In this document: positions 22,308 through 52,697 of the stretch, one piece after another | Numbering within the stretch: position 1 is the first letter of the stretch | Layout: the number at the start of each line of letters is the position of its first letter | Assembly (NCBI GenBank): GCA_030602705.1 | Contig: JAUVZF010000003.1 | Location: 18,875-82,874 of the forward strand | Direction: 5' to 3' | DNA: 64,000 nucleotides | DNA from: Planctomycetota bacterium | GTDB lineage: Bacteria; Planctomycetota; Phycisphaerae; FEN-1346 | Position numbers and translations under genes: made by a program | Notes under the pieces: model-generated | What the model was told of the DNA's origin: nothing | Databases searched by the model: none | The model's input: only the letters and a program-made list of their open reading frames with translations

Positions 22308-22446
22308 GGCGGGATGATAGCCCGCAGGCCGAGTCCGTGTCAATCGGCAGGTGCGTTCCGCTCCCCGGCGGGCGCGCCGCGAGCAGGTGGGTGCCGCAAT
22401 CGGCCGCAATAACCGCACCCGAAGGCCGTTTAGACAGGCGGAAGGC

Positions 22447-22995
22447 ATGACCGAACGCACAGGCGACTCTCCGGATATCGAGCGCCTGCTCGTGTCATTC
22501 GCGCCGCGCGTTTACGGCCTCCTGCTTCGCATGGTCGGCCGGCCCGACGTGGCCGAAGACCTGATGCAGGAAACACTCCTGCGTGCCTTCCGAAGTATGG
22601 GAACGTACCGTCCGGAAGGCAAATTCCGGGCGTGGATCTTTCGCATTGCGGTAAACTTGGCACGCGACTGGATCCGCCGGCGACCGCGCCAGCGGGTATT
22701 CGCCCTCGGCGACGACGGCGACGAGACCTCGCCGCCACTGACACCGGCTGCCGACTCGCCGCCCGACGCCGACGTGCTGAGGTGCGAACGGGCCCGATGG
22801 GTCGAACAGGCCCTGGCGCGGTTGCCGAACGCAGACCGGGAGGTTCTGCTCATGCGGTACTACGGCGACCTGACGTTCAAGACCATCGCCCAGGCCACCG
22901 GTGAGCCGCTCGGAACGGTCCTGGCCCGGGCCCATCGCGCGCTGAAGAAGTTGGGGGACATGTTCCCGGGGGAAAGCCATGAACCGATGCCCTGA
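22447..22995 (+). CDS. ECF-type RNA polymerase sigma factor
   Basis: PDVAEDLMQETLLRAFRSMGTYRPEGKFRAWIFRIAVNLARDWIRRR; DREVLLMRYYGDLTFKTIAQATGEPLGTVLARAHRALKKL. Confidence 0.93.
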   Translation: MTERTGDSPDIERLLVSFAPRVYGLLLRMVGRPDVAEDLMQETLLRAFRSMGTYRPEGKFRAWIFRIAVNLARDWIRRRPRQRVFALGDDGDETSPPLTPAADSPPDADVLRCERARWVEQALARLPNADREVLLMRYYGDLTFKTIAQATGEPLGTVLARAHRALKKLGDMFPGESHEPMP

Positions 22996-23548
22996 CAACA
23001 CGGAATGGGTGCTGTATGCGACGGGCGAGGTGCCGCTGCGTCGCCGCCGCGCCCTCGCGAGCCATCTGGAAGGCTGCCAGGCCTGCCGCCGCGAGGTGCA
23101 GGCCGTCGAGCGCGGCCTGGCGGTGCTCGAGACCCTCGACCGGCAGCCGCCCGTCAGACCGCAGGCGCTCGAAATGCTCCGGAAGCGCCTGTCGGTCGCC
23201 GCGGCGCGCAAGGCCGCGCGGCCGGGCGTCCTGGCGCGGATCTATCCTTACCGCTGGGCGGCCGCGGCGGCCGTTATCATCGCCGTTGCGCTCGCCTATG
23301 CCCTCGTGCCATCGACCGACCGGCCGCCGCCTGTGGCCGGTGGGACACAGGCTGCATGGATGGACGAGGCCCAGTTCGAGGAAGAGATCGCAGGAATCTC
23401 GACAGAGATCGAAATGCTCGAACTTGGCGCGCTGGCTACGCTATGGGAGGGTGGCAACGGCTCTAACGGCACCGTGCCGGAATCGATCAACGGGGAGAGC
23501 CGCTGGCCCTCGGATAGTCTGGGTGGGGAGATCGGCGTTCCGGGCTGA
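22979..23548 (+). CDS. Anti-sigma factor (zf-HC2-like) with one TM
   Basis: ASHLEGCQACRREVQAV; TM AAAAVIIAVALAYALV; overlaps the sigma gene. Confidence 0.8.
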   Translation: MNRCPDNTEWVLYATGEVPLRRRRALASHLEGCQACRREVQAVERGLAVLETLDRQPPVRPQALEMLRKRLSVAAARKAARPGVLARIYPYRWAAAAAVIIAVALAYALVPSTDRPPPVAGGTQAAWMDEAQFEEEIAGISTEIEMLELGALATLWEGGNGSNGTVPESINGESRWPSDSLGGEIGVPG

Positions 23549-23617
23549 CGCGCGTTGCGCTGCTAACCGTCAGCCGCCGGGCTTGCCCGGCGTGCCGTGA
23601 CGTGACAGGAGGAAACC

Positions 23618-24445
23618 ATGCGACAGGTACTGACGGTCCTGGCCCTTGCGGTGGCGCTCGTGGCGACCTCGAGCCTGGCCATGGCCGAGGAACGGGGTCC
23701 GCAGCCGGCGTCGGACAAGCCTCGCCGTGGCCCGTCGGCAACCGACAGGCGGCCCGGACCGCCGCCACCGCCGCACGGGACGCGACCGCGCCGGCCGCCC
23801 GAGGGCGAGCGCCCCCGGCGCGGCGAGCGCGGGCGCTTCGGCCGCAGTCCGTCGATCTTCCGCGACGTCACGGACGAGCAGATCGAGACCATCCTCGCTT
23901 TCATCGACAAGCACATGCCGTGGCGGCGCGAGGCCCTGGAGAAAATGCGCCGGTCGGAACCCGAACGGTTCCGCCAGTTCTGCCGGCGGCTGCGGTTCGA
24001 GATCGCTCAGTTGCAGCACCTGAAAGGGCGCGACGAGGCGGCCTTCCGCAAGGCGATCGAGGAACGGCGGTTGAGAATGCGCGCCGTGGATCTGGCCGCC
24101 AAAGCGCGCACCGCCGAAGACCCCCAAGAGAAGGAGGCATTCACCAAGGAACTGCGAAAGGTTATCGACCGGATGTTCGGACTCGAACTCGCCACCCACG
24201 AGGCCCGCATCCGTGGACTCGAAGAACGCATCGAGCAACTGCGGCGCGAACTGAAGGAGCGCGCGGAGCACCGACGCGAGATCATCGAGAAGCGGCTCAA
24301 AGAAGCACTCGAGGGCAAACCGGAACCGCCATTCCGCAGACCGTCTAAAGGACCACCCAAGGGACCACCCAAGCGCGGCAAGCACTACAAAGAAGGCCCT
24401 CGCCCCGACAAGCCCCGTCGTGACGAACCGGCGCCCACCCTATGA
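23618..24445 (+). CDS. Secreted Arg/Pro-rich helical protein, function unknown
   Basis: Signal peptide MRQVLTVLALAVALVATSSLAMA; low-complexity R/P/G then coiled-coil-like segment. Confidence 0.7.
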   Translation: MRQVLTVLALAVALVATSSLAMAEERGPQPASDKPRRGPSATDRRPGPPPPPHGTRPRRPPEGERPRRGERGRFGRSPSIFRDVTDEQIETILAFIDKHMPWRREALEKMRRSEPERFRQFCRRLRFEIAQLQHLKGRDEAAFRKAIEERRLRMRAVDLAAKARTAEDPQEKEAFTKELRKVIDRMFGLELATHEARIRGLEERIEQLRRELKERAEHRREIIEKRLKEALEGKPEPPFRRPSKGPPKGPPKRGKHYKEGPRPDKPRRDEPAPTL

Positions 24446-36045: not shown

Positions 36046-36480
36046 ATGAGAAAGATTCTGTTAATCAGCCTTGCGGCCGTGATCGTGGCGGGGGGCATCG
36101 CCCTGGTGACCTACGCGCAGGACGTAGGAGGCCCGCCGCGGGATCGCCCGCGCGGCAGGCAGCCTGGAGACAGGCCGGGCGGCGGCAGACCGCCGCGGAT
36201 CGAACTGACCGAGGAGCAGAGCGCCGCCCTCAAAGAACTCATGAAGGAGGGAAAAGTTGGTGACCACCTCATGAAGGCCCTGACCGCGTTCCAGGAGGCG
36301 GTCAAGGGCGTCCTCGGGAAGGAAATAAAGGACGAGGCCCAACTCAATAGGGCCGTGCGGAGGTTCGTGTTCCAGGCCATCATGCGGCAAATGCGGCCGC
36401 CGGAGGGCGACAGAGACCGGCCAGGCAGGCGCACCGACCGCAGGAGAAGGCCGCCTGGTGGCCCGCCCCCGCCAGAGTAA
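36046..36480 (+). CDS. Small secreted Arg/Pro/Gly-rich protein, unknown function
   Basis: Signal peptide MRKILLISLAAVIVAGGIALVTYAQ; R/P/G-rich flanks around a helical core. Confidence 0.7.
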   Translation: MRKILLISLAAVIVAGGIALVTYAQDVGGPPRDRPRGRQPGDRPGGGRPPRIELTEEQSAALKELMKEGKVGDHLMKALTAFQEAVKGVLGKEIKDEAQLNRAVRRFVFQAIMRQMRPPEGDRDRPGRRTDRRRRPPGGPPPPE

Positions 36481-36712: not shown

Positions 36713-37216
36713 TCAGATAAAGTGGAGCAGGCGTCTGAGCATCTCCGTCGGCCCGGCCACCTCGCCCGCCTCGGCCGAGACGGGGGCAAACTCCTTCTGC
36801 ATCTCGGCCAGTTGCTCATCGTAGAGTTGTTGGGCAAACTCGCGATGGGCGGCCCGGCGCTCGTCGCCGCTCTCGTACTGGGTGCGGATGGTGGCCAGTT
36901 CGCCCGCGTCGAGCCAGACACCGCCGCATCTCGGGCACTCGTCCACCTCAACGGCGCGTTTCGGGCTGTAGAAATGGCGCGTCATCGCCGGGTGGCCGCA
37001 TTGCGGGCAGCCCCACTGGGCGTCGTGATCGACCGCGACGTTGGGGTCGCGCTGGACGTCGAGCAGCGCCTCGCCGGCGGCCTCTTCCCGGTCGTCCAAC
37101 TTCCGGATCTCCTGGCTGTCGAACCAGATGCCGCCGCAGCCGTCTTGACACACATCCACTGTAACGTCCGCCACCGTCATCCGCGTCAGCGTATTGCCAC
37201 AAGCCGGGCATTCCAT
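36713..37216 (-). CDS. Zinc-ribbon protein with two zf-TFIIB-like domains
   Basis: MECPACGNTL...VDVCQDGCGGIWFDSQEI and CPQCGHPAM...VDECPRCGGVWLDAGEL. Confidence 0.85.
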   Translation of the reverse strand: MECPACGNTLTRMTVADVTVDVCQDGCGGIWFDSQEIRKLDDREEAAGEALLDVQRDPNVAVDHDAQWGCPQCGHPAMTRHFYSPKRAVEVDECPRCGGVWLDAGELATIRTQYESGDERRAAHREFAQQLYDEQLAEMQKEFAPVSAEAGEVAGPTEMLRRLLHFI

Positions 37217-37347
37217 CGGCAGACCCCCTTTCCACATTCTGGACGCCGACCAGTGTAGCGACATGCCGCACGCCTTGTCACGTGGAAAGAGCGGCGCGGC
37301 GGCCAGCCACGGCCGCCGCGCGGGATTTCCATGCCCAGAAACGTCGC

Positions 37348-40300
37348 TCACACCGCTGCAGACCTGCGGCGGGCGAAGAACAATTTTGTCTTCATGCCGA
37401 CGCCGACAGCCAGCGCCAGCAGGCCCGCCACCGGGAAGATGCCCAGTGCAATGCCGACTACGCCCAGGATAATCAGCACCGTCGAGATCGTGCCCTGGGT
37501 TTTCAGACCGATCTCGCGGCCGCGCAGCCATCGCCGCACCAGCACGATCACCACGACGAGCACCACCACACCGGCCACGCGCTCCAGGCCCTCGATGAGC
37601 GGCCGCGACGCCGACCAGGCCGTGATCTCGATCTTCTTGTCGAGCGGGCTGGTGAACTGGAACAGCGTGCCGCGCCGAGGCAGTTCGACGTCCAGGCTGG
37701 CCATGCCTGTGGGAAGGTCGGCGGTTTCCGCCGGGGCCTCGGCCACGCCGAAAAAGCCCCTTCCTGAAATCCCGTGACCCTCGAAGCCGCCGACTTCTCT
37801 CAGTCCTACGCCCGTCCCTGTAATCGTGAGCGTCTTGCCGGCTCTTGTCACCCGTTTATCGATTTCGGCCCGCTGCGCCAGTTTCTGCTGATACCGCTCG
37901 ACGACCTCGGTCTGGCTGAGGCGGCGCTGCTGCTGCCTGGCGGATTGCTGGACCCCCTTCCGGTCGGCCATGTCTTTGTCGGCGAACATCTGGAACATCT
38001 GTCCTGCGGCCTGCGACGCGTGCCCCGGGTCCTGCTGCTGCGCCGAAGCGACCTTTTGTCCACCCACCTGGAACCGTGCGGCGCCCTTCTTCTGCCGCGC
38101 TTCGGCCTCCTTGTTGACGAGCCGGGTCTCAGCCAGCCAGGCGTCGTTGAAGTCAAACTGGCCGGCCGGCCGGGCGCCCGTCTGCGGCGGGGCCTTCCAG
38201 TTGGAGCCGAGGTCCTGGACGAGGTTCCGCGCCCGGCGATTGTCCTGCTTTTCGTACGCTTGCCTTATCAGATCGTTGTTGAAGTCCGCGTCCACCTGCC
38301 GGGCCTGCTCCTGTGCCTGGATCTCCTTGTCGACGTTCTTGAGGACCACGGCCGCATTCGACAGTTCCGATTGCAGCGTCACGTTTCCGTAGTACTTCTG
38401 TCCCAGCGATTGCTTGTGCGTCTTGATATCGCGAAAAATCTTGAAAAGGTTCGTCTTCGCTCGCGTCTGGGCAAACGGGTTGTCGGACCGCAGCGTCTGC
38501 ATCAGGCGGCCGGCCAGTTTGTTCCTGTACGCCAGGACGCCCGCCTGGAGGGTGCCCTCTTCCGTCACCCGGCTCATCGTTCCGCGGAACCAGAACCAGG
38601 CGTGCGTCTCGGGCAGGTACACCTGCACCTGGCTGAGTTCCGCGTTGATGTTAACCGGACGGATAAGCGGAAACGCGACCGACACGCGCAGCGCGCCGAG
38701 GTCGTCGATGCTGCCGCCGTACTTCAGGATGACCGCGTAATCGAGGTCGCCCTCGGCGGTCTTGACGATCGGGATGCGCACCTTGCGCGCATCGTCCATG
38801 AGCGTCGGCTTGACCGGCTGGCCGGCCACGACGGCGGTCCACAGGGCGGCCCCCTCCGGCAGTTCGATCTCGAGGAACTGTTCGGTCCGGTTGTCGATGC
38901 GATACGTCTGTTGGGCTCGGTAGGCGCCGCTGGAGTCGAAAACCAGGACCGTCTGTGCCAGGCCGATCTTCGCTTCGACGGTCTCGACGGTCTCCCGCTC
39001 TTTCGTGCTGAACGCCAGGCGCGGCGCCTCGGCCCCGGGCGAGACGATGAACGCCTGCGTCATGCCGCCGCGCAGCATCCGGGCCACGGCCGCCCACTCC
39101 TTCTGCTGGCGACTCAGGGGGTCGAGGCCTTGCGTCTTCTCCTGATCGACGATGACCTCATCGCGCCCGGCGCTCTCGAGGGCAACGTAGCGGCGGTCGG
39201 TCCGGCCGGTCTCGACTCTCGGAATCGGCGCGTCGTGCGTCCCGCCAGCCAGCAGACGGTCGTTCTCGATGAGCACGCGCAACTCGCCCATGACCTCGTC
39301 CTGAAGTTCCAGGTGCACGCGCACCGACGCCGCATCATCCGCAACCGGCGTAATCGTCTTCTGCCTCAGCAGAGGCACGCTGATGCGTGCGTCCTTCATC
39401 CACGCCGGCAGCACCAGCGAGACGTCGCGGATGCCGGCGCCACGGATCGTCCAACTGACGAGGATCGTCTCGTCGATCGACCGGTCGGTGACCCGCGCGT
39501 TCGTGACCGTGAAGCACGTGACATCCGGCTTTTTCGCCGTCAGAACCAGCCGCCCCGCGTAATCGGGACGCGTGTAATGTAGGGCCAGCGCGGCCAGGGC
39601 CTTCTGGTCGCTGCTCAGCCACCCGCCGGCGCGGCGCAAGAGCACCCGCTCGATGTTCTCAAGGGCCTCCGTCCGCACCTCGAACGCCGGGTCCACCTGG
39701 ATAACGATGTCGCCCTGCTGGCGATCGACGTCCAGGACCTCGAGGTGCGGCACGGCGGTCTCGAGCGTTTCCCGGTCCTCGCCCAGTTTGCCCCGGAGAA
39801 GGATCGGGCACGCGCCTTGCACGCCGCTCGCCAGGTACACCGTCAGAACCTTGCGACCCGCCTCGTCGGTCAGCGCCCACTCGAACATGCCGGGCGCGAG
39901 CACGCGGTCCACTTTCAAGTCCGCCGGCACGACGAACCGGGCCCAGTAAAGCGGCCGGTTCCGGACGGTGAGCGTCACCCGGGCCTCCATGCTCCGCTCG
40001 CGCTGGGCCACGCGCACGATCATCTGGACGGTCGCCGACTTCTTCGCCACGGCGGGCGCCGCCGCCAGACGGACCGAGAACGGCGTGGCCACGAAACGGT
40101 ACGCTTCCTGCGGGCGGATGCCGAGGGGGCTCTCGACGGCTTCTCCGCCGGGCCCCGTCCTCTTCGGTTCGGGCGGCAGATCGTCGCGGCGGACACCGCT
40201 GGTAGCGACCGTCCGCAGGTCCAGGAGCGGACTGCGACGGATCACGAGTTGCCCCGTGTGCCTGAGCGCACCCGTTACAGCGACCACCGGGGCGTCGAAC

Positions 40301-43300
40301 TCCCCACCCGCCACCGGCGAGGAGCCCGCATCGGCCTGTCGCCAGATGGTGATCGTGAAGTCCTCCGACCCCTTGGCCGGTTTCAGGAGGGTCACGGTCA
40401 CCTCCTGCCGGTCGCCGGCTTGCTTGGTCTCCCACCCCCGGACGTTCGTCCCTTCCACCTTCTCGACGGTGTAGCCGTTGGGCACCTCGAGGGTAAAGAA
40501 GTCGCGCTCGCCGTGGCGGAACTCAAGGTGAAGCGACCACACCAGCCGCAGGCTGTCTTCCTGAACGTCGAGGACGGCCTTCGAGGCGGCGGTCAGGGTC
40601 CGGTCGAGTTGTCCTTCGCTGACCTTCGGCCGCCACTGAATGGAGACCGAGCCGCCCGCGCCGAGGGCCGTTTCGATTGTCTGGCCGGCCGCCTTCGTGT
40701 CATAGGAGGCGCGGTCGGGTACGCCGCCCAGGCGAACCTCTGTCCCGGCGTCCGGGACGGTCAGCGCCAGGGCCGTGGCGGGGGCGACCGGCAGCCGCCC
40801 TTCGACGACGCGCCATCCGCCTCGCCGATGCAACCGCATCCGCACCGCCAAGTCCAGCCGGTGCCGCCCTTTGCCCGAAACGTAGAGCACGACGAAGGAC
40901 TTCGGCAGCGCTTTCGACGACTTCTTCCTGTTCGGCGGGGGCGCCGCCTCGGCGACGCTCAGCCGCGCGGGAGCGCCGTCCAGGTCGGCCTTCGCCAGGA
41001 CACCGCCCTCCAGCGGCAGCGGCACGACGGCGTAGGAGTCGGTGTACACCTCGATGTCGATGTACCCTTCGACGAGCAGGAACTCCTCGCCCTTGAGCGT
41101 GGCCGCCAGCGCCGCCCCGGCCAGCGCGTACGGCGCCGGCGGTTTCTTCTCGCCGATGGGTTTATCGGGATACGCCTGGTTCCACAGTTCGACGTACCTG
41201 GCGTACGGCACGAGCAGGCGGTCGGCGTCCTGGATGCCCGTCTTGGACCCAGGATCGTAGGGCACGATGATGGCGTCGGCCGGCACCTTGACGGGCTTCG
41301 GCGGGGGCACGACCTGGATGACGTACGGCGCGCCCTTCTCGTCGGCGACGGCCGATGCGCCGCCGGCCAGCAGCACGCCTGCGGCGATGGCGAGCACCAT
41401 CCCCGCCGCCGCCGTCGCCGGAGGCGCAAACGTGCCGCGAGCCTTCCCGACGAACCACCGCACACAACCCGCCACCAGGTAGTACAGGATCAGCAGGCAC
41501 GCCGCGTAGAACGCCCCGTTGACGAGCATCGCCAGTTCGATGCGGCCCGTGATGACGGGGATGAGCGTCGCCACCAGGCCCACGCCGACGACGTAGGCCG
41601 CCTTGGCGGCCGCCGGCCGCGCCGTCAGGGCGAGACCGACGACCACCACCGCCAGCGCGAGCGCCCACGCCAGCGAATCCATGCGGCCGGCGTCCACGAC
41701 GGTCAGGGCCAGTCGAGGCTCGGTGCCGAGGCTCTGGAACGTGACGGCCTCGCCGGTCGTGACGAGGTCGATCTTGAGGCTCGCGACGCCCTCCAGTGCC
41801 CAGGCCCGTTTGAGTTTCTTTTTGGCATCCTCCTTCTTCGCGGGCGTTACGGGCTTCTTGGGCAGCGCGGGAGGTGTGAGTTTGGGCCTCGCCGGTTTGG
41901 CCTCCGTCGCCGTGGCGACGGAAGGCGGTTTTTCGGCGGGTTTCGCCCCGGCCGGTGCCTCGGCGGCAATCTTCAAATCCTCCCTCGTCTTGGCTGCTCC
42001 CTCCTCCGACTCGTCGCCAAAGTAATCGTCTTGAGTCGCATCCGCACTATCACGGGCTTGGTCCCAACGTCCGACCGCCATCTCCTCCATCGCGCAGCCG
42101 CCGAACCCCATCAGGACGAGTCCCAGGGCGCCGTGGTCGAAATCCACGCCGCCCGAACCGGCGTAAAAGGCGCCGGCCACGCTGGCGACGGCCAGCGGCG
42201 GCGCCGTCACCTGGCCGGTCACGACGCTGCCCTCGGCCCGAACCACCCGGTAGCCGCTGGGCATGAACAGTTGCCACTCCAGATCCGCCACAGGCACCTC
42301 TTTACCTTCAGCGGTGGACTCGGCGTGAAGGAACAGGCGCGGGGCCGGAACGTCCAACCCCTTCCAGAACCCCATGCCGGCGACCGGCGTCTCGTAGACG
42401 ATGCGCAGGTCGCGGACGGCCCCGGCGGCGGCCGCCGGAAGGTTCAGCAACATGCTTTCGGCCTCACGCTGCGGCTTGATGGGCTCGCCGTCGAGGGCGG
42501 CCGACCACAGGGTCGAGTCCTCGGGCAACCGGACTTCGAGGAACAGGGCCTTGGTCCGCAGAAGGAACCGGGCGGATGTCTGGGCCAGGCCGTCGGCCGA
42601 CAAGACCGTCGCCAACTCCGCCCGCTGGATGATCGCCGGCGGAAGACCCAGCGTGGGATGCCGCGCCACCGACACCGCGACGGGCGCCGTATCGCCGACG
42701 AACCCGTAAGCGCCCAGGAGGCGGCGGCCCGGCTGGTACTCGGCATCGACGAGTTCGCCGATGTCGACTTTTCGGGCCCCGGTTTTAACGACGACGTCGA
42801 GTTCGGGACTGCCCTCAACGGCCACCAGGCCCGACTGGTACGCCACGCCGTCGGCCTCGACGATCGGCAAGGCCAGGTCCTCGGGTTCGAGTTCGCCGAG
42901 CCGCTGCTGGAAATCGACCGCCAGGCGGACGGTGCCGCTTCGGCGCTCGGCCAGAATGGCGGTCCACCGGCGCCGCCGGCTGGCTTTCTCGCCAACCAGT
43001 TCGCTCGTGTATTCCTTGAGCGCCACGCCGCCCAGGCCGCGGATCGAGAGCGCCGTGGGCGTGTCTTCGGGCAGCAGCAGCATCAGCCGCCGCGTCCGGG
43101 CCTGCGTCACGTCGTAGACGATCTCGTAATGGGCCGCCACGCGCCCGCGCTCGACGCGGAAGAACGAGAAGGTCTGGGCGGTGATGCGCGGCAGGGTCCG
43201 CTCGACCGTCAGGCGGGCCCGATACGGCTGAGCGTCGTATCGGTAGGCGAGAGCGGCGCCCACGCCCTGGAGACCGTAGCGGGTCTTCTCGTTCTCATCG

Positions 43301-45033
43301 AGCGGCATGAGGCGCTCGAGCGTCTCGGGCCGGACAACCATGTCGTCGCGAGCGTCTACGGCGATGGCGCCCACGTCGCGGGCGGCGCCCGAGACGGCGA
43401 ACACCGGAAACTCCATGGCCGTCCTGGTCCACTCGCTGAACCAGGTCTTCGGCACGTGGACGGCCGTGAAGAGCACCTGCCGCTCGGCCCCTGCGGGCAC
43501 GCCTTTGGCCAGGCGGACGCGGACGCGTCCGGCCTCGCCGGGCTTGCCGTACCGCTCGAACGTCACGCCGCCGCCGTCGGCCGTGACGCTGGTCACGTCC
43601 CATCCGGCGGGGACGGAGAAATCGAAGGCGAAGCGTTTCTCTTGCTCCGGCACCAGGGCGAACCCGCCGCGCACCGTCAGGCCGCCGTCCTCGAGGATCG
43701 CCAGCAGGTTGGTCGTCACGCGCAGTCGCGCGGGCGGTTTGACGAACCGTGCCGTCAGTCCGAACGCCGCTTGCGGCGCGTAATACGCCACGACGGGGCG
43801 GATCTTTGCCGCCCCCGGCCGGGCCTCCAGCACCGTGGCCGGCAGCGCCTTCGTCAGGACTGCCGTGTCGATGGCGATGAGGCCCTCGGGCGAGATGGCC
43901 TCGGCCTTCAGGCGGTCCTCGACCGCCAGGCCGACGACGGCCACGTGGCCGACGACGTCGAGCGGTTCGAGTTTCGCGAGCGCCCACCCTCCGAGGTCCG
44001 GCCTCATCCGCACGGCCGACAGGTTCAGGACGACCGTCTCGGTCGTCTCGTCGCGAAGGTGGACGTCGAGGATGCGGCGGCCGGATTCGGTCACGATGGC
44101 CCAGCGCGCCAGGTTCGGCGACCGGACGTCGGTTACCTCGAACCCCGCCGGGACGGCGAACCGGAACCCCTTCACGGCCCGGTGCAGGACGGCCATCGAG
44201 ACGGTGGCGTGCAGCCGCTCGTAGGCCTGCGTCACCTCGTCCAGAAAGACCGACCGGGCGACGACGATGCGGTCCTTTCGCAGGAGGCGGCTGTTGAGCG
44301 TCATGACGAGCGAGACGTCGCCTCGCTGCGGCAGGATTTCAATGCGCGTGACCTCGGCCGCCTCGTCGAAGACGCGCTCCACGACCGGCGCGCCGGACTT
44401 GACCTCGACGTCGCCCGGGATGGTCAGCCGCATGCGTGTGGGCGCGGGGGTCGGCAGGCGGAAGTTCAGAATCTGCCTGGCGGCGGTGGTCTGAAGCGGG
44501 GCCACGACGTCGAGAACGAGTTTGTGCTCGCCCTTGCCCTCGACGAACAGTGTGAGCCGCCCGTCGTCCGAGAGGCCGAGCGGGGTGTCACGGGCGTCGA
44601 GGCTCGCGCCGCGCAGGCCCACGCCTCCGATGTCGAGGCCGACCGCGTGCAGACCGTCTTCCAGGACACTGACGGTGAGCGTGCCGGTGATCTCGGCCCG
44701 CTCGTCGCCGATCTTGGCCTGGTAGTCTGCCGAGATGAGAAGTGCCTGGCGCGGAGCGCGGGCCTCGGCCTCCTTCTTCGCCTTTTCGAGCAGCGCTTGG
44801 TATTCTTTGCGCGACAGGAGCACGCGGTTCGGATCGCCTTCGAGCAGGACGCTGAGGTCCTCGAACGGGACGAGCAGTTCGCGGACGGTTTTCTCGGATT
44901 TCGGATTTCGGATTTCAGATCTGAGATTTGAGATTTGAGATTGCAGATTGGCCGGCGGCGGCTTGCTGACGGCCGCGGCGGGCACCGTCAGGGCTGCCAG
45001 GACCAGCAGCAGGATGGGGATGGTGTTACGCAT
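37348..45033 (-). CDS. Giant envelope protein: two fused signal peptide/beta-rich/TM modules, function unknown
   Basis: N-terminal signal peptide MRNTIPILLLVLAALTVPAAAV; internal TM cluster then second signal-like MVLAIAAGVLLAGGASAVA; C-terminal TMs; repeated LLVPFEDL / LLVPYARYVELW motifs. Confidence 0.8.
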   Translation of the reverse strand: MRNTIPILLLVLAALTVPAAAVSKPPPANLQSQISNLRSEIRNPKSEKTVRELLVPFEDLSVLLEGDPNRVLLSRKEYQALLEKAKKEAEARAPRQALLISADYQAKIGDERAEITGTLTVSVLEDGLHAVGLDIGGVGLRGASLDARDTPLGLSDDGRLTLFVEGKGEHKLVLDVVAPLQTTAARQILNFRLPTPAPTRMRLTIPGDVEVKSGAPVVERVFDEAAEVTRIEILPQRGDVSLVMTLNSRLLRKDRIVVARSVFLDEVTQAYERLHATVSMAVLHRAVKGFRFAVPAGFEVTDVRSPNLARWAIVTESGRRILDVHLRDETTETVVLNLSAVRMRPDLGGWALAKLEPLDVVGHVAVVGLAVEDRLKAEAISPEGLIAIDTAVLTKALPATVLEARPGAAKIRPVVAYYAPQAAFGLTARFVKPPARLRVTTNLLAILEDGGLTVRGGFALVPEQEKRFAFDFSVPAGWDVTSVTADGGGVTFERYGKPGEAGRVRVRLAKGVPAGAERQVLFTAVHVPKTWFSEWTRTAMEFPVFAVSGAARDVGAIAVDARDDMVVRPETLERLMPLDENEKTRYGLQGVGAALAYRYDAQPYRARLTVERTLPRITAQTFSFFRVERGRVAAHYEIVYDVTQARTRRLMLLLPEDTPTALSIRGLGGVALKEYTSELVGEKASRRRRWTAILAERRSGTVRLAVDFQQRLGELEPEDLALPIVEADGVAYQSGLVAVEGSPELDVVVKTGARKVDIGELVDAEYQPGRRLLGAYGFVGDTAPVAVSVARHPTLGLPPAIIQRAELATVLSADGLAQTSARFLLRTKALFLEVRLPEDSTLWSAALDGEPIKPQREAESMLLNLPAAAAGAVRDLRIVYETPVAGMGFWKGLDVPAPRLFLHAESTAEGKEVPVADLEWQLFMPSGYRVVRAEGSVVTGQVTAPPLAVASVAGAFYAGSGGVDFDHGALGLVLMGFGGCAMEEMAVGRWDQARDSADATQDDYFGDESEEGAAKTREDLKIAAEAPAGAKPAEKPPSVATATEAKPARPKLTPPALPKKPVTPAKKEDAKKKLKRAWALEGVASLKIDLVTTGEAVTFQSLGTEPRLALTVVDAGRMDSLAWALALAVVVVGLALTARPAAAKAAYVVGVGLVATLIPVITGRIELAMLVNGAFYAACLLILYYLVAGCVRWFVGKARGTFAPPATAAAGMVLAIAAGVLLAGGASAVADEKGAPYVIQVVPPPKPVKVPADAIIVPYDPGSKTGIQDADRLLVPYARYVELWNQAYPDKPIGEKKPPAPYALAGAALAATLKGEEFLLVEGYIDIEVYTDSYAVVPLPLEGGVLAKADLDGAPARLSVAEAAPPPNRKKSSKALPKSFVVLYVSGKGRHRLDLAVRMRLHRRGGWRVVEGRLPVAPATALALTVPDAGTEVRLGGVPDRASYDTKAAGQTIETALGAGGSVSIQWRPKVSEGQLDRTLTAASKAVLDVQEDSLRLVWSLHLEFRHGERDFFTLEVPNGYTVEKVEGTNVRGWETKQAGDRQEVTVTLLKPAKGSEDFTITIWRQADAGSSPVAGGEFDAPVVAVTGALRHTGQLVIRRSPLLDLRTVATSGVRRDDLPPEPKRTGPGGEAVESPLGIRPQEAYRFVATPFSVRLAAAPAVAKKSATVQMIVRVAQRERSMEARVTLTVRNRPLYWARFVVPADLKVDRVLAPGMFEWALTDEAGRKVLTVYLASGVQGACPILLRGKLGEDRETLETAVPHLEVLDVDRQQGDIVIQVDPAFEVRTEALENIERVLLRRAGGWLSSDQKALAALALHYTRPDYAGRLVLTAKKPDVTCFTVTNARVTDRSIDETILVSWTIRGAGIRDVSLVLPAWMKDARISVPLLRQKTITPVADDAASVRVHLELQDEVMGELRVLIENDRLLAGGTHDAPIPRVETGRTDRRYVALESAGRDEVIVDQEKTQGLDPLSRQQKEWAAVARMLRGGMTQAFIVSPGAEAPRLAFSTKERETVETVEAKIGLAQTVLVFDSSGAYRAQQTYRIDNRTEQFLEIELPEGAALWTAVVAGQPVKPTLMDDARKVRIPIVKTAEGDLDYAVILKYGGSIDDLGALRVSVAFPLIRPVNINAELSQVQVYLPETHAWFWFRGTMSRVTEEGTLQAGVLAYRNKLAGRLMQTLRSDNPFAQTRAKTNLFKIFRDIKTHKQSLGQKYYGNVTLQSELSNAAVVLKNVDKEIQAQEQARQVDADFNNDLIRQAYEKQDNRRARNLVQDLGSNWKAPPQTGARPAGQFDFNDAWLAETRLVNKEAEARQKKGAARFQVGGQKVASAQQQDPGHASQAAGQMFQMFADKDMADRKGVQQSARQQQRRLSQTEVVERYQQKLAQRAEIDKRVTRAGKTLTITGTGVGLREVGGFEGHGISGRGFFGVAEAPAETADLPTGMASLDVELPRRGTLFQFTSPLDKKIEITAWSASRPLIEGLERVAGVVVLVVVIVLVRRWLRGREIGLKTQGTISTVLIILGVVGIALGIFPVAGLLALAVGVGMKTKLFFARRRSAAV
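44896..44951. repeat. 56-bp array of 8 x 7-bp units (GGATTTC/AGATTTG) inside the giant ORF
   Basis: ggatttc x3, agatctg, agatttg x2, agattgc, agattgg; encodes NLQSQISNLRSEIRNPKSE on the minus strand. Confidence 0.9.
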
Positions 45034-48000
45034 CGTCGTCACCCCCTTCCTTGTCGTCGTCATTGTCTTGTGGCGGCGGCCGGCCTTCCTCGGCGGGTTG
45101 CGCTACGTTCTCGGCCGGAGGTTTGGCCGGCGTCGCTTTGGCCGCCGGCGTGCCCGCTTGCTGTGCAGCGGCCATGGCCCTGGCGAGCGCCGCCTCGCGT
45201 GCCGCCCGGCGGGCCTTCTTGCGCTGGCCGATGCGCGGATCGCGCGGGCGGGTCCACAGCAGGTACCACAGGAGCCAGATGACCGCCACGATGGAGACTG
45301 CGGCGGCCATCACGCCGTCGGCCACCTGCGGCGCAAACGTCGGCGCGAACACGCCCAGCAAGACCATCAGAGCGATGAAGGCGCCCACGGCGATGCACCG
45401 CGTCGTCCACGGCGTCAGCAGGAGCGCCACGCCGACAGCCAGGATGACGACAAAGACCGCGATGGCCAGGTACGTGCTGTCCCACGCCGCGAGGTGCAGG
45501 CTGCCCTCGGGCGGTTCCTGTGGCCGCAGCGTCGAGAACAGGTACGGCCGGCCGTCGGTCTGAAAACTCCCTTCGGCGCCGCCTTCGGTCTTCAGGCCCT
45601 CGCGGACCCAGTTGATGAGCGACGTATCGCGGCGGCCCGCCACCGGCAGCCACGTCAAGTCGCCGCCGCGGAAGTCCCAGACGTTCTCGTCGGTCCACGG
45701 ACCGGTGTAGCCGAGGTAGTCCCACTCGCTGGGCAGCCACGCCGCAACGTACACCTTCTGGACGGCGGGCTCTTCCGGAAAGACCGGGCAGTCGAGTGTC
45801 AGACCGGCGCCCTTGACGGTGTACCGCAGTTCCAGCAGGAACGGTTTCTCGGGCGTCAGCGAGACGAGCGGCACGAAGAACGTGGTGCGGTCGCCGCTGT
45901 GTTCCAGCGACACGGGGCGGCCGTTGATTCGCAGCGGGTCACGGTCAAACTCGTGGAAATCGGCCGGCAGCCTCACCCGAAGCCGCTGCCGCGCGCTCCG
46001 GGCGCGGTATAGGGCCTGGACGCTGATGAGGTCGCTGCGCGTCACGACCATCCGGACGAGCGCCCGTTCGATGGCGGTGTGCTTGATGTCCTCGAGTTTG
46101 TACATCGTGGCGACGACCGTAAGGGCCCAGTCCTCGTGGAACTCGAAGGCCCGGGCCGCGGCCTTGACGGCCGCGCCGGGCATCAGGTCGTGCTGGGGGT
46201 CAATGGGCCTGAGGCCCTTGACCTTGTCCTCGCCCTCTGCCCGTTGTACGTCGATGGTCTCGGCCTTCGCCAGGACGATCTGTCCCCATGCCCGGTCGAT
46301 GCCGCGCGGGATGAGCCGCGGGATCTCGAGGTTCACGCTCTTGCCGACGTCGAGTTTCTCGATCTTCTTCTCCCACGTCAGCGTCACCCTGACCGAGCCC
46401 ATGAACTCCGCATCGCCGGTCAACTGCCAGGCGACGTAGCCGTCGGCGAGATCGTCGGGCTTCTCGGCGACGGTTTCGTGGCGGATGGTCAGGGGCGTGA
46501 CGCGGATGTCGCCGGCCAGGTCCTGCGGCACGTCCAGCCGCAGGTTCTTCACGCCGCTGTAGAGCACGTCGTAGAAGAAGGCGGCCGAGTACTTGACGAC
46601 CCCCGAATCGATCCGCGCTACCAGCAGTTGCCGCACGGTGACGTGAGGCTTGCGGCGTTCGGCGGCCAGGGCCAACGAGGCCGGCTCCTCGGTGTAGGCG
46701 AACGCCAGGACGGGCCGCTCGCCGCCGCGCTGCGTCCGCCGCATGTCTTTGGTCGCTTCCTGGAACGTAACGGTCCGCAGGCCCGTCGGCTTGTCGGGGT
46801 TGACGCGAAGGCTCTCCGGCGCATAGACGACCAGGCGCCCGGTCTCGCGCTGGACGCTGTCGGGCGCCACTCGCGGGATGGCCAGCGGGATGTCGGCCGC
46901 CTTGCCGGTGGGGGCCAGGAGGTCCGGCTCGTGCAGCGTCTTGTGGAGCCCGACGGCGAGCGCCACTTTGCCCATGGCTTTGCGCGACAGGTTCACCACG
47001 AGGCGCGTCTTGTTCGGGCCCTCCAGGTGATGGGCCTCGACCTGGGCGGGCCGAACGGCCTTGCCCACCGCCACGCCGCGCACGCTGCGGACGTCGTACC
47101 CTTCAGGCACGTCGATCTCGAAACGAAAGACGCCGGCCCTCTCGACCGTGTAGACGGTCAGCAAATCCACCGTCAGCGCCTCGGTGCCGAGGTGGGCCTC
47201 GACGAGCGAGTCTGCGAGGATGCGCGGCTGGACCTTCTCGACGCCCAGGGTCAGGTCGAACGGCAGGGCGGCGTAGCGGTAGGAGAAATCCCACTTGCCC
47301 TTGGCGAGCGTCTTGGGCAGTTCGGCCGCATCGAGTTGCAGGAGGCCGGCGTGGGCGACGGCCTCGGCCCGCAGGCCGGAGGCCACCTTGACGACGACCA
47401 CTCCCTGCTGGCGTCCCACGCCGAGGGCCTTGATGACGGGCACTTTGACCTGGGGGGGCTGCTCGGCGCTGAACTTCTCGAGTTCGAGCGTCAGGTTCTG
47501 CGTCTTCTTGGCGGGCTCGAACAGTTGGACGGTGATCTTCTGGACGCCTCCGGCGGCGGCCACCGACCACTCGCGGACGTTCGGATCGAAGACGCCGGCC
47601 ACCTTCTGGTTGGCGGGGACCTCGACCTGGAGGCTCGCGAGTTCCGCCCGGCTGATCTCGTAGGCCAGCGTTGCCCGGGTCCGCATGACGCCTTCTTCGA
47701 TGGTCGTCTGCTGCTCGATCTGGACGCTCGCGAGCGCCGCGAGGCCTTTGGCGCCCTCGGCCTTGGGCGTCCAGTCGATGCGGACGGTGGGCGCAGCGCC
47801 GACGAACGCCAGGACGATGGTCTCCTTGGCGGCGGCGCCGGCAGCGGGCGGGACCTCGGTGGCTGCCAGGAGCGGATGGATGTTCACCTTGACGCCCGAC
47901 TCGGGGATGCGGACCTCCCACTTGCTGACGGGTGCCTGCGGACTCTCGAACGAGACGCTGTTCTGGCCCGGCGCCTTCGAGTAGGCCTTGGCGAAGCCGA

Positions 48001-48541
48001 GGCTCAGGGTAAACTGCTGCGGGTCTTTGCCCTTCTTCTCGACCAGGAGTTTGTAACCGGCCTTGGCGTCGGAGACGATGCGCGCGGGCTCGGCGCCGAG
48101 CGTCGCCTTCGTCAGGGCGACGTCGCGCAGGCGGAGCAGGACCTCGTTCCAGCCCTGCTTGAGGACCTCAAACTTGATTGTGGCCTCGACCGTGACGACG
48201 TCCTTCGAGACGGTGACCACGCCGGAGACCTCGGTGATGAGGGCGTCGATGGGTGGCTTGGCCTCGGGCGGCGGTGCGGTCTTGTCGCGTGCGGCCTTCC
48301 AGAGTTCCTGGAACTTTTCGTAGGGCAGGAAGACGCCGCGGCCCTGTTTCTCGAAGACGTCGCGGAGTTTCTCATAGGGGATGTAGATGCTCTGTTCGCG
48401 GACGGCCTTCGCCTCCTCGGCGGAGAGAGGCTTCGCGGCCGGTTCCGCCGGCGCCGCGTGCACCGCCTCCACCATCGGCAGGAAGACGGCCATCGTCAAA
48501 ACCACAACCATCGGCCAGATTCGAGACGTTCGCATGGTCAT
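45026..48541 (-). CDS. Large envelope protein (1,171 aa), homologous to the modules of the downstream giant ORF
   Basis: Signal peptide; IYIPYEKLRDVFEKQGRGVFLPYEKFQELWKAARDK; C-terminal TM cluster; stop overlaps the next start (8 nt). Confidence 0.85.
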   Translation of the reverse strand: MTMRTSRIWPMVVVLTMAVFLPMVEAVHAAPAEPAAKPLSAEEAKAVREQSIYIPYEKLRDVFEKQGRGVFLPYEKFQELWKAARDKTAPPPEAKPPIDALITEVSGVVTVSKDVVTVEATIKFEVLKQGWNEVLLRLRDVALTKATLGAEPARIVSDAKAGYKLLVEKKGKDPQQFTLSLGFAKAYSKAPGQNSVSFESPQAPVSKWEVRIPESGVKVNIHPLLAATEVPPAAGAAAKETIVLAFVGAAPTVRIDWTPKAEGAKGLAALASVQIEQQTTIEEGVMRTRATLAYEISRAELASLQVEVPANQKVAGVFDPNVREWSVAAAGGVQKITVQLFEPAKKTQNLTLELEKFSAEQPPQVKVPVIKALGVGRQQGVVVVKVASGLRAEAVAHAGLLQLDAAELPKTLAKGKWDFSYRYAALPFDLTLGVEKVQPRILADSLVEAHLGTEALTVDLLTVYTVERAGVFRFEIDVPEGYDVRSVRGVAVGKAVRPAQVEAHHLEGPNKTRLVVNLSRKAMGKVALAVGLHKTLHEPDLLAPTGKAADIPLAIPRVAPDSVQRETGRLVVYAPESLRVNPDKPTGLRTVTFQEATKDMRRTQRGGERPVLAFAYTEEPASLALAAERRKPHVTVRQLLVARIDSGVVKYSAAFFYDVLYSGVKNLRLDVPQDLAGDIRVTPLTIRHETVAEKPDDLADGYVAWQLTGDAEFMGSVRVTLTWEKKIEKLDVGKSVNLEIPRLIPRGIDRAWGQIVLAKAETIDVQRAEGEDKVKGLRPIDPQHDLMPGAAVKAAARAFEFHEDWALTVVATMYKLEDIKHTAIERALVRMVVTRSDLISVQALYRARSARQRLRVRLPADFHEFDRDPLRINGRPVSLEHSGDRTTFFVPLVSLTPEKPFLLELRYTVKGAGLTLDCPVFPEEPAVQKVYVAAWLPSEWDYLGYTGPWTDENVWDFRGGDLTWLPVAGRRDTSLINWVREGLKTEGGAEGSFQTDGRPYLFSTLRPQEPPEGSLHLAAWDSTYLAIAVFVVILAVGVALLLTPWTTRCIAVGAFIALMVLLGVFAPTFAPQVADGVMAAAVSIVAVIWLLWYLLWTRPRDPRIGQRKKARRAAREAALARAMAAAQQAGTPAAKATPAKPPAENVAQPAEEGRPPPQDNDDDKEGGDDDA

Positions 48542-48970
48542 GCCCTCGGTAATGGGTCCCTAGAGTGCTTCGGTATCGGACGTGCGCCCTCGCCGCCGGC
48601 GCGGCGAAGACGCGCATGCGCTTTCCTGAATAGACGCACCTTGCCACATGGGGTTCCGCGCATTTTCCGGCCTCCCTATGGCGCTCGCCGGCGAAAAGCC
48701 CGCTGCCGGCGAGGCGCGGACGGTCTGGCACACTGTCTCTCTCGTCCTGTTGTACACCAATCGTTGACTCGACGGTGTAAACGGTTTGTAACTTACGGGA
48801 CGATGGTGATGTGCGCTAAGCCCTCGACCTTCAGAATCAGATTGCCGGCCGGGAGGTACTCGTGGGGCTCGGACACCGCCACGTCCTTGCCGCACGGCGA
48901 CCCGCCACTTCGCCGCTCCGCCGCCACGGGTTCCTTGCGTCGAGCCGGATGGTACGGTAGCCTGTGGCGT

Positions 48971-51763
48971 ATGGCACACGGGCGCCAACACCCGGAAACG
49001 AGATGCATGTGCCGCCTCTTGGCGATGGTCGTCTGCCTGGCGGTTGCGTGCGCGACAGCGCTCGGGGCCGAGGCGCAAACGCCGGCACGAGATGCCCTGA
49101 CCTGGACCGACCTGCCGCCACTGCCGCCCGCGCCGGGGCAGCAGACCCAACCCGGCGTGGCCGGCCCGTTCGTCGGTGTGGACTGCGGCAGGCTCATCGT
49201 TGCGGGCGGCGCGAACTTCCCCGACGCGCCGCCGTGGCGCGGCGGCAAGAAGGTCTGGTGGGCCAACGCCTTCGTCCTCGAACCCGCTCGCGACAGCACC
49301 TACGAATGGCGCACCAACGAGCATTGCAAACTGCCGCGGCCGTTGGCTTACGGCGCATCGGTCACCACAAAGCACGGCATACTTTGCATCGGGGGATGCG
49401 ACGCCCAGCGGTGCTACACCGAGACGGTGCTGGTCACGTACGATGCGGCCGAGCAGCGCCTTGTCCATCGTCCGCTTCCGTCCCTTCCCCGTCCGCTGGC
49501 CTTCATGGCGGCCGCCAAGGTCGGCGACGCCATCTACGTTGCCGGCGGGCAGGAGACGATGACCGACGCCCGGGCGATGAAACATTTCTGGCGGCTGGAC
49601 CTGTCGCGGTTCGATCCGAAAGAGACCGACCAGAACCCGGACTTTGCGTGGGAGAAACTCGACCCCTGGCCCGGACCGCCGCGCGTCCTCCCGGTGGCTG
49701 CCGCGCAGAGCGACGGGGCGACCGACTGCTTCTACCTCTTCAGCGGTCGAAACATCGCCCCCGGCGCCGAGACCCAGGTCCTGACCGACGCTTACCGGTA
49801 CAACCCCAAGACCGGTACGTGGACGCGTCTGGCCGACGTTGCCCCCCAAGGCGAACCGCCGCGCTCGATCATGGCGGCCACGGCCATCGCCTCGGGCGCG
49901 GGTCACATCCTGGTGTTCGGCGGCGCCGACGGGAAACGGTTCCTCGAACTCGAGCGCCTCGGACGCCGGGCGGACGAAGCAACGGATCGCCGAGACGCCG
50001 CCGAAGCCGATGCGCTCACCAGGCGGCAGAACCGCATCCTCGACAACCATCCCGGTTTCAGCCGCGCTCTTCTCGCCTACCACACGATCACCGACACGTG
50101 GACCCGCGTCGGCCGGTTCCCGGGCGCCTGCCCCGTGACGACGACTGCCGTCGCGCTCGGCGACTCGATTCTCATCCCCAGCGGCGAGGTCCGGCCCGGC
50201 GTGCGCACGCCGAAGGTCTGGAAGGCCGACCCGCCGCCGGCCCGGTCGTTCGGATGGATCAACTACGCGGTGCTGGGCGTGTACCTGGCCGCCCTGGTGG
50301 CGATGGGCGTGCACTTCTCGCGGCGCGAAAAGACGACCGACGACTTCTTCAAAGCCGGCGGCCGCATCCCGTGGTGGGCGGCGGGTCTCAGCATCTACGG
50401 CACGCAACTGAGTGCCATCACGTTCATGGCCATCCCCGCCAAGACCTTCGCCACCGACTGGCGATACTTCATGGGGAACATGGCCATCGTCATGGTCGCG
50501 CCGCTGATCATCTTCCTGATTCTGCCGTTCTTCCGCCGCCTGAACGTGACCACGGCGTACGAGTACCTGGAGAAACGTTTCAACGTGGCGGCCCGTCTGT
50601 TCGGCAGCGTGATGTTCATGCTGCTGCAACTGGGGCGGATCGGGATCATTCTGTTCCTGCCGTCGATCGCCCTGAGCATCGTGACGGGCATCGACGTGCG
50701 GGTCTGCATCGTCGTGATGGCCGTCCTGAGCATCACCTACACGGTACTCGGCGGTATCGAGGCGGTCATCTGGACCGATGTCCTCCAGGTGGTCGTCCTG
50801 CTCGGCGGCGCAGGGCTGTCGCTGATGCTGATGCTCGCGCACATTCCGGGCGGTTTCGGCGGCATGATCGACATCGCCCGGGAGGCCGGCAAGTTTCACA
50901 CCTTCGACTTCCGGTTCGACCTCCAGACGCCGACCTTCTGGGTCGTCCTGCTCGGCGGACTGGCTGCCAACTTCATCTCGTACGGCAGCGACCAGACCGT
51001 CATCCAGCGGTACCTGACCACCAAGGACGAGAAGGCCGCAGGCCGCGGCATCTGGACCAACGCCGTCCTGTGCATCCCCGGCTCGATGCTCTTCTTCGGC
51101 CTGGGCGCGGCCCTGTACGTATTCTTCAAGACGCGCCCGGACCTGATGAACCCGACGCTCGCCAACGCCGACGCCGTCTTTCCGTGGTACATCGTGACGC
51201 AGTTGCCGACGGGCGTGGCGGGCCTGCTGATTGCTGCCCTGTTCGCGGCGGCGATGTCGAGCCTCGATTCGAGCATGAACTCGGTCGCCACCGCCGTCAC
51301 CACGGATTTCTACCGCCGCTTCAAGCCGGACGCGAAGGACCGCACCTGCCTCGCCCTGGCCCGATGGGTCACGGTCGTCGTGGGGCTGGCCGGGATGGGC
51401 CTTGCGCTGCTCATGACGGGCTGGGACATCAAGAGCCTGTGGGACGAGTTCAGCAAGGTTCTCGGCCTGTTCGCCGGCGGACTGGGCGGCCTGTTTCTAC
51501 TGGGCATCTTCAGCCGCCGGGCGCACGGCATCGGAGCGCTGGTGGGCCTGGCGGCCAGCGCCGCCGTCCAGTTCGCCGTCAGTTGGACGGGCATCGTGTA
51601 CCTGTTGCTGTACAGTTTCACTGGCGTGGTAACGTGTGTCGTGGTCGGATACGTCGCGAGCCTCATCATTCCTGTCAGGTTGGCGAGGGTCTGGTGGCTG
51701 AGGCAGGGGCCGATTGACGGTCTGACGCTTCACACGCTCCGCAAGAAGGACGAGGACGGGTGA
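48971..51763 (+). CDS. Fusion: kelch-type sialate mutarotase-like (NanM-like) domain + sodium:solute symporter
   Basis: Signal peptide; kelch-like repeats IVAGGANFPDAPPWRGGKKVWWANAFVLEP, GILCIGGCD, IYVAGGQE, ILVFGGADGKRF; then GWINYAVLGVYLAALVAMGVHFSRREKTTDDFFKAGGRIPWWAAGLSIYGTQLSAITFMAIPAK. Confidence 0.9.
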   Translation: MAHGRQHPETRCMCRLLAMVVCLAVACATALGAEAQTPARDALTWTDLPPLPPAPGQQTQPGVAGPFVGVDCGRLIVAGGANFPDAPPWRGGKKVWWANAFVLEPARDSTYEWRTNEHCKLPRPLAYGASVTTKHGILCIGGCDAQRCYTETVLVTYDAAEQRLVHRPLPSLPRPLAFMAAAKVGDAIYVAGGQETMTDARAMKHFWRLDLSRFDPKETDQNPDFAWEKLDPWPGPPRVLPVAAAQSDGATDCFYLFSGRNIAPGAETQVLTDAYRYNPKTGTWTRLADVAPQGEPPRSIMAATAIASGAGHILVFGGADGKRFLELERLGRRADEATDRRDAAEADALTRRQNRILDNHPGFSRALLAYHTITDTWTRVGRFPGACPVTTTAVALGDSILIPSGEVRPGVRTPKVWKADPPPARSFGWINYAVLGVYLAALVAMGVHFSRREKTTDDFFKAGGRIPWWAAGLSIYGTQLSAITFMAIPAKTFATDWRYFMGNMAIVMVAPLIIFLILPFFRRLNVTTAYEYLEKRFNVAARLFGSVMFMLLQLGRIGIILFLPSIALSIVTGIDVRVCIVVMAVLSITYTVLGGIEAVIWTDVLQVVVLLGGAGLSLMLMLAHIPGGFGGMIDIAREAGKFHTFDFRFDLQTPTFWVVLLGGLAANFISYGSDQTVIQRYLTTKDEKAAGRGIWTNAVLCIPGSMLFFGLGAALYVFFKTRPDLMNPTLANADAVFPWYIVTQLPTGVAGLLIAALFAAAMSSLDSSMNSVATAVTTDFYRRFKPDAKDRTCLALARWVTVVVGLAGMGLALLMTGWDIKSLWDEFSKVLGLFAGGLGGLFLLGIFSRRAHGIGALVGLAASAAVQFAVSWTGIVYLLLYSFTGVVTCVVVGYVASLIIPVRLARVWWLRQGPIDGLTLHTLRKKDEDG

Positions 51764-51779: not shown

Positions 51780-52697
51780 ATGACAGAGCACATCGAAGGG
51801 CTGATTGCGGCGCCGTTTACGCCGATGGGTGAAGACGGCGGCGTGAACCTCGCTGCCGTCGAACCGTACGCCGACCTGCTGGCGCGAAACGGCGTGGCGG
51901 GTGTGTTCGCGTGCGGCACGACCGGCGAAAGTTTGTTGCTGACGGTCGCCGAGCGGATGGATATTGCCAAGCGCTGGACGGACGTGGCGGCCGAGGGGTT
52001 CAAGGTCATCATCCACGTCGGGCACAACAGTCTGGCCGAGTCCAAAGCGCTCGCTGCCCACGCGGCCGAGATCCGCGCCTATGGCATCGGCGCGATGGGG
52101 CCGTGTTTCTTCAAGCCGCAGACCATCGAGGACCTGGTGGCGTTTTGCGCCCAGGTTGCGGCGGCGGCGCCCGCGCTGCCCTTCTACTATTACCACATCC
52201 CCGGGATGACCGGCGTCGAGTTCCCGATGGCCGACTTCCTGGAAACCGCGACCGAGGCCATCCCGACCCTCGCCGGCATCAAGTACACGTGGGAAGACCT
52301 CGTGGACTTCGGACGGTGCCTCAACGTCGGGGACGGGCGGTTCGACCTTCTCTACGGCCGCGACGAAACGCTGCTCGCCGGCCTGGCGATCGGCGCGCGC
52401 GGCGCGGTCGGCAGCACGTTCAACTTTGCGGCCCCGCTGTATCGGCGGCTCATGGAGGCGTTTGAGGCGGGCGACCTTGACACGGCCCGCGACCTTCAGC
52501 GCAAGTCCCGCGAGATGATACACCTGCTGTACCGCACGGCCGGTTCGTTCCTGCCGGCCGCCAAGGCCGTCATGAAGATGGTCGGCCTGGACTGCGGCCC
52601 GGTTCGCCTGCCGATGCGAAACCTGACGCCGGAGGAGGCCAAGCACGTGCGGGCCGAACTCCAACGCCTTGGCTTCGATGAATACTGCGCGAAATAG
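51780..52697 (+). CDS. nanA: N-acetylneuraminate lyase / dihydrodipicolinate synthase family aldolase
   Basis: GLIAAPFTPMGEDGGVN; GVFACGTTGESLLLTVAER; FYYYHIPGMTGV; LAGIKYTWEDL (Schiff-base Lys). Confidence 0.85.
   Translation: MTEHIEGLIAAPFTPMGEDGGVNLAAVEPYADLLARNGVAGVFACGTTGESLLLTVAERMDIAKRWTDVAAEGFKVIIHVGHNSLAESKALAAHAAEIRAYGIGAMGPCFFKPQTIEDLVAFCAQVAAAAPALPFYYYHIPGMTGVEFPMADFLETATEAIPTLAGIKYTWEDLVDFGRCLNVGDGRFDLLYGRDETLLAGLAIGARGAVGSTFNFAAPLYRRLMEAFEAGDLDTARDLQRKSREMIHLLYRTAGSFLPAAKAVMKMVGLDCGPVRLPMRNLTPEEAKHVRAELQRLGFDEYCAK

Follow-up and report, generated by a model that had tools for sequence, protein, structure and literature searches.

Gene organization of the A–B locus

The window, the whole 64,000-nucleotide stretch of planctomycete DNA analyzed here, carries two overlapping minus-strand genes, named A and B, which encode one copy (A) and two copies (B1 and B2) of a large module. 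B is laid out as a signal peptide, B1, a transmembrane (TM) cluster, a signal-peptide-like segment, B2, and TM segments. The features of the locus are as follows.

45026..48541, minus strand: gene A, one-module protein of 1,171 aa with a signal peptide, double PY motif, beta chain, three TM segments, and charged C-terminal tail
37348..45033, minus strand: gene B, two-module protein (preferred start 45033; ORF open to 45063)
45026..45033, minus strand: A/B stop/start overlap ATGCGTAA, 8 nt, with a purine-rich, ribosome-binding-like stretch ahead; kept in most orthologous pairs
48287..48394, minus strand: double docking-like motif of A, residues 50-85, IYIPYEKL..VFEKQGRGVFLPYEKFQELW, IYIPYEKLRDVFEKQGRGVFLPYEKFQELW with flanking residues; best-conserved part of A
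45500..48253, minus strand: predicted extracytoplasmic beta-domain chain of A, residues 97-1014 (AlphaFold), with internal repeats of ~170 aa
45248..45499, minus strand: TM cluster of A, residues 1015-1098, three predicted helices (hydropathy; helices in the model)
44788..44883, minus strand: double motif of B1, residues 61-92, RELLVPFEDLSVLLEGDPNRVLLSRKEYQALL; pattern kept in most orthologues
42214..44754, minus strand: beta-domain chain of B1, about residues 104-950 (profile matches at 104-408, 541-626, and 634-773)
41446..41688, minus strand: central TM cluster of B, residues 1126-1206 (hydropathy; present in orthologues too)
41341..41430, minus strand: internal signal-peptide-like hydrophobic segment, residues 1212-1241, ending GGASAVAD; opens module B2
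41179..41280, minus strand: double motif of B2, about residues 1262-1295, IIVPYDPG...LLVPYARYVELW
38494..41088, minus strand: beta-domain chain of B2, about residues 1326-2190 (profile E 7e-26 for 1326-1666 and 5e-10 for 1678-1802)
37375..37602, minus strand: C-terminal TM cluster of B, residues 2488-2563 (hydropathy)

The longest ORF of B in the ORF list spans 37348-45063 on the minus strand (2,571 aa), and a start at 45063 would give an overlap of 38 nt with A. If the ATG at 45033 is used, the overlap is the 8-nt sequence ATGCGTAA, which includes the stop codon of A. At most loci of the main clade, the stop of A and the ATG of B likewise share an 8-nt overlap, with a GGAGG-like site ahead. 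The start at 45033 is supported because this arrangement is kept in most orthologous loci. The 8-nt overlap described in the initial annotation is thus real, given this start, and the coupled expression proposed there is upheld by the conserved overlap architecture. A search of positions 48400-49100 of the window for a sigma-70-like promoter or a terminator returned none.

Directly downstream of B lies a gene for a Zn_ribbon_TFIIB protein (36713-37531, minus strand), a homologue of which is also found 3′ of B at locus L032, in a genome from the window's family. Divergent to A, the plus-strand ORF 46079-51763 encodes, by eye, a kelch-repeat protein fused to a sodium-solute symporter, from about 48964, and is followed by a gene of the dihydrodipicolinate synthase/N-acetylneuraminate lyase family (51780-52697, plus strand; Pfam DHDPS). 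Together, the two genes resemble a catabolic unit of the sialic-acid type.

A, B1, and B2 are homologous modules with internal repeats

The three modules were compared by blastp, and significant similarity was found in all three pairs: A and B1 aligned with E 4e-27 (22% identity over 845 columns), A and B2 with E 1e-28 (23% over 767 columns), and B1 and B2 with E 7e-19 (24% over 876 columns). Locally shuffled module controls reached a maximum of 30.4 bits, compared with 80-112 bits for the real pairs. A, B1, and B2 are therefore mutual homologues, as expected of three tandem copies of one module, and they share the plan that had been read from the sequence, namely an export signal, a double "PY..LW" motif, a beta chain, and a TM cluster. 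The export signals and TM anchors of A and B were borne out by hydropathy, and TM segments recurred in the orthologues. With this topology, B1 and B2 would both be extracytoplasmic, and the segment at residues 1212-1241 of B may re-export B2 and is perhaps cleaved.

The P...V...W repeat noticed earlier is real. In an alignment of 65 sequences, W229 (residue 325 of A) was one of only three invariant columns in the repeat region, and P213 and V221 were nearly invariant. Profile searches showed a ~170-aa beta unit recurring inside every module (for example, A 463-632, E 2e-8; B 1678-1802, E 5e-10), and the P..V..W pattern falls within this unit. The true repeat is therefore shorter than a whole module.

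The double PY motif of A (37 residues) had an identity to the window residue of 0.82, compared with 0.56 in the beta region, and the stretch at residues 49-85 ranked second by identity among 1134 sliding windows, the top one beginning at residue 48. B1 and B2 orthologues have their own versions of the motif. In the AlphaFold model, the motif of A had a pLDDT of about 40-60 and was predicted to be disordered or helical when alone. High conservation together with a low-confidence fold in isolation suggests that the double motif is probably a docking segment toward a partner.

Structure prediction and family searches

The structure of A was predicted with AlphaFold. The whole protein, modeled with 28 homologues, had a mean pLDDT of 80.9 and a pTM of 0.41, so that the model does not define the domain arrangement; nearly everything outside the TM helices was modeled as strand, with most blocks at pLDDT 80-94. 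The fragment 97-440, modeled with 64 homologues, had a pLDDT of 91.9 and a pTM of 0.54. The module, as represented by A, is thus predicted to be an almost all-beta chain with TM helices.

Foldseek searches against the PDB were run for the fragment and for whole A, and a viral library was also searched. The top eight matches of the fragment were ribophorin I/Ost1 chains (E 3e-11 to 4e-8), which were also the top fold match for whole A. For the paired-beta-domain fold of ribophorin I/Ost1, the best match to the fragment joined a strong score (E 3e-11, probability 1.00) to a TMq of 0.43 and an rmsd of 11 Å, and it represents local similarity only. Integrins, inter-alpha-inhibitor heavy chain 1, and many M1 aminopeptidases followed, and LTA4H matched the fragment over 217 columns at 5 Å. 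These models place A in a beta fold class by prediction; common descent is not implied, and the domain arrangement is unmatched.

Ribophorin I/Ost1 and A both combine a signal peptide, lumenal or extracytoplasmic beta domains, and a TM anchor. Nevertheless, the two share only 8-11% identity in the fold alignment, with a TM-score of about 0.4, and A and B have many more domains and no STT3 partner. The inter-alpha-inhibitor heavy chain (VIT-VWA), a VIT-domain protein, matched the fragment with E 4e-5, and YfbK-type VWA proteins are operon partners of module genes in six relatives, whereas A and B contain neither a VWA domain nor a VIT sequence signature. The LTA4H match indicates a beta domain of the same kind as the N-terminal domain of M1 aminopeptidases, but A and B lack a peptidase domain (no Pfam M1) and HExxH. 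Integrin alpha ectodomains are likewise chains of beta-sandwich domains; this match was weak, with a low TM-score, and likely reflects a generic beta-chain resemblance.

The initial annotation recognized no named family, and this still stands. A and B had zero matches in Pfam, NCBIfam, and PADLOC, A matched no PDB sequence, and a 29-member profile of A found nothing at a meaningful level among families or PDB sequences. Pfam Ribophorin_I was not among the matches listed for 29 homologues of A at E up to 10. No description of the A/B family was found in open-licence papers.

The A–B pair is widespread in Planctomycetota

A scan of GTDB genomes retrieved 35 loci, nearly all in Planctomycetota MAGs, whose genes were called on the contigs with a custom script. 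Where contigs were long enough, A was followed by a B of about 2,500-2,900 aa, and the pair was also kept as a unit across many divergent families. Beyond the pair itself, no neighbour family was common to the A–B loci (about 35 loci). In an even draw, a homologue was detected in 30 of 81 Planctomycetota genomes, a lower bound given the single-sequence query; the pair is therefore spread through the phylum.

In two genomes (G120 and G070; loci L087 and L089), three separate genes occur in the order A, B1, B2, each best matching the corresponding module of the window, which indicates that B comprises two once-separate or later-separated module genes. A split B at L032 (1,264 + 1,753 aa) was dropped from this evidence. 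It coincides with an assembly gap (X) and a frame change, and it was judged an assembly artefact because the break falls inside B1 instead of between B1 and B2.

In a quick ML tree, the A of the window's family fell inside a Pirellulales-rich clade with 100% SH-aLRT (no bootstrap), and A genes from other genomes of the window's class branched far off. This placement suggests horizontal transfer of A into the window's family. In a MAG labeled Kiritimatiellia (L033), A branches beside the window's family, pointing to wrong binning or recent transfer.

Two further arrangements were found. In type II, a single-module protein of ~680 aa lies behind a partner of 1,160-1,950 aa. The beginning of this partner weakly resembles a module, and depending on the member, the partner also carries TPR, Secretin_N, or VWA domains; this operon (L067-L073 and L078) is conserved in several families. 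In type III (G027, G059, G076, and G095), an ECF sigma factor, an anti-sigma/TM/VWA-YfbK protein, and a double-module protein of ~2,200 aa are encoded.

Some module genes are linked to ECF sigma/anti-sigma genes

In six genomes, module genes lie directly downstream of genes for an ECF sigma factor and a membrane anti-sigma/von Willebrand protein. Besides the type III genomes, G123 and G096 have ECF sigma and anti-sigma/VWA-YfbK genes directly ahead of the A–B pair in a four-gene operon with gaps of 3-18 bp or overlaps of 4 bp (in G096, the contig ends within B). G089 has, divergent from A–B, an ECF gene together with a gene for a large anti-sigma-like protein that is VIT-like by eye. Neighbourhoods had been picked by module matches and not by sigma factors, and among the 63 loci whose upstream sequence extended for 2.5 kb or more, 9 (seven genomes; some loci overlap) showed the link. 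YfbK_C domains number about 1-4 per genome, and this rarity makes chance adjacency very unlikely. With a rate of 0.2% assumed for each locus, the binomial P was about 4e-9, a value that is indicative only, as the loci are related. This link between ECF factors and module genes is new in this analysis. Together with the topology, the linked membrane anti-sigma/VWA proteins in relatives support the "envelope" label given to the modules at the outset.

ECF sigma/anti-sigma genes adjoining A–B are absent at the window locus, where the pair stands alone, as do the main-clade pairs; the regulatory link is therefore lineage specific. The nearest ECF gene of the window (22351-22995) was set aside as a regulator of A–B, because about 26 kb separate it from the start of A and it is paired with a zinc-finger anti-sigma factor of its own. 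It belongs to a plus-strand row (22351-24445) of an ECF sigma factor, a small zinc-finger-like anti-sigma factor with one TM segment, and a Pro/Arg-rich secreted protein, the last resembled by a small Pro/Arg-rich protein at 36046-36480 (plus strand). A trans-encoded anti-sigma/VWA fusion was sought in the window's genome, and none was found; the only YfbK-type protein found there is an ordinary predicted lipoprotein encoded elsewhere (L122, 8157-10403), where its gene diverges from that of an unrelated ECF sigma factor. In G005 (L123), too, a YfbK match was seen close to an ECF gene.

Proposed function and alternative explanations

The anatomy of A and B is well supported, and for their function we infer the following. 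A and B would be translated in a coupled manner off one message, and A, B1, and B2 may assemble into a stoichiometric three-arm complex anchored in the inner membrane. Each arm would be exported and would start with the double PY motif, the probable dock for a partner; its body would be a string of M1-N/VIT/ribophorin-I-type beta domains and its end a transmembrane bundle. The complex could serve as an extracytoplasmic scaffold or as a ligand- or surface-contact structure of the envelope. In some lineages, the ECF sigma factor and the membrane anti-sigma/von Willebrand protein of the same operon would handle expression and perhaps signal. We hold this scaffold or contact complex tentatively, at somewhat short of an even chance.

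The strongest rival is that the modules form a receptor in which the effect of a ligand or mechanical load on the beta arms is relayed across the membrane to the anti-sigma factor and releases the ECF sigma factor. A sensory role is also allowed because the ECF sigma/anti-sigma genes, in operons with modules in six genomes and divergent in one, are the sole repeated functional link, and type II relatives pair the 680-aa module protein with a TPR/Secretin_N or VWA protein. The modules themselves are neither sigma nor anti-sigma factors, and most loci, the window's included, have no nearby sigma factor, yet the pair is kept regardless; we regard a receptor as unlikely, though a serious contender. 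A machine that secretes large polymers or fibres or assembles them at the surface, akin to the secretion structure put forward in the initial annotation, would suit the protein size, the membrane anchors, the spread across the phylum, and the Secretin_N domain of one type II partner (L070). It is improbable, as no secretion gene, be it for a channel, an ATPase, or a secretin, was a conserved neighbour of A–B at the loci compared.

The fold matches raise two further alternatives. A ribophorin-I-like accessory to a membrane enzyme, holding substrates near a glycosyl transferase, would accord with the leading ribophorin I/Ost1 matches; these reflect local fold similarity only, no sequence match to Ribophorin_I was found among the listed matches, and STT3 (PF02516) was absent from the window genome, G001, and G005, with no above-cutoff match in the 13 genomes tested. 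As STT3 was not found, such a partnership is very improbable. A secreted M1-type peptidase is suggested by the N-domain matches to M1 aminopeptidases (E about 1e-4 to 2e-5), but A and B lack the HExxH zinc motif and have no catalytic-domain match, which refutes catalysis and leaves this explanation with practically no likelihood.

A membrane-anchored complex of three beta-chain arms accords with all that was observed, and for its function a scaffold or contact role is the reading we retain. The phylum-wide pair, the lack of a family model, and the sigma-factor operon in some genomes indicate that A–B is probably an unstudied part of the planctomycete cell envelope. More speculatively, and doubtful as a whole, the pair might form a planctomycete-specific machine whose PY-docked arms span or organize the wide periplasm and report to an ECF sigma factor in some lineages, with a possible link to crateriform structures.

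The periplasm of planctomycetes is enlarged and their envelope carries unusual structures, and to our knowledge, few of the parts of these structures have been identified. A–B is a widespread conserved pair without a family model and big enough to build such structures. Its clear operon architecture, docking-like motif, and, in some genomes, linked regulator offer specific experimental targets. The predicted ribophorin-I/VIT/M1-N-like fold in long non-eukaryotic chains is also relevant to the origin of those domains.
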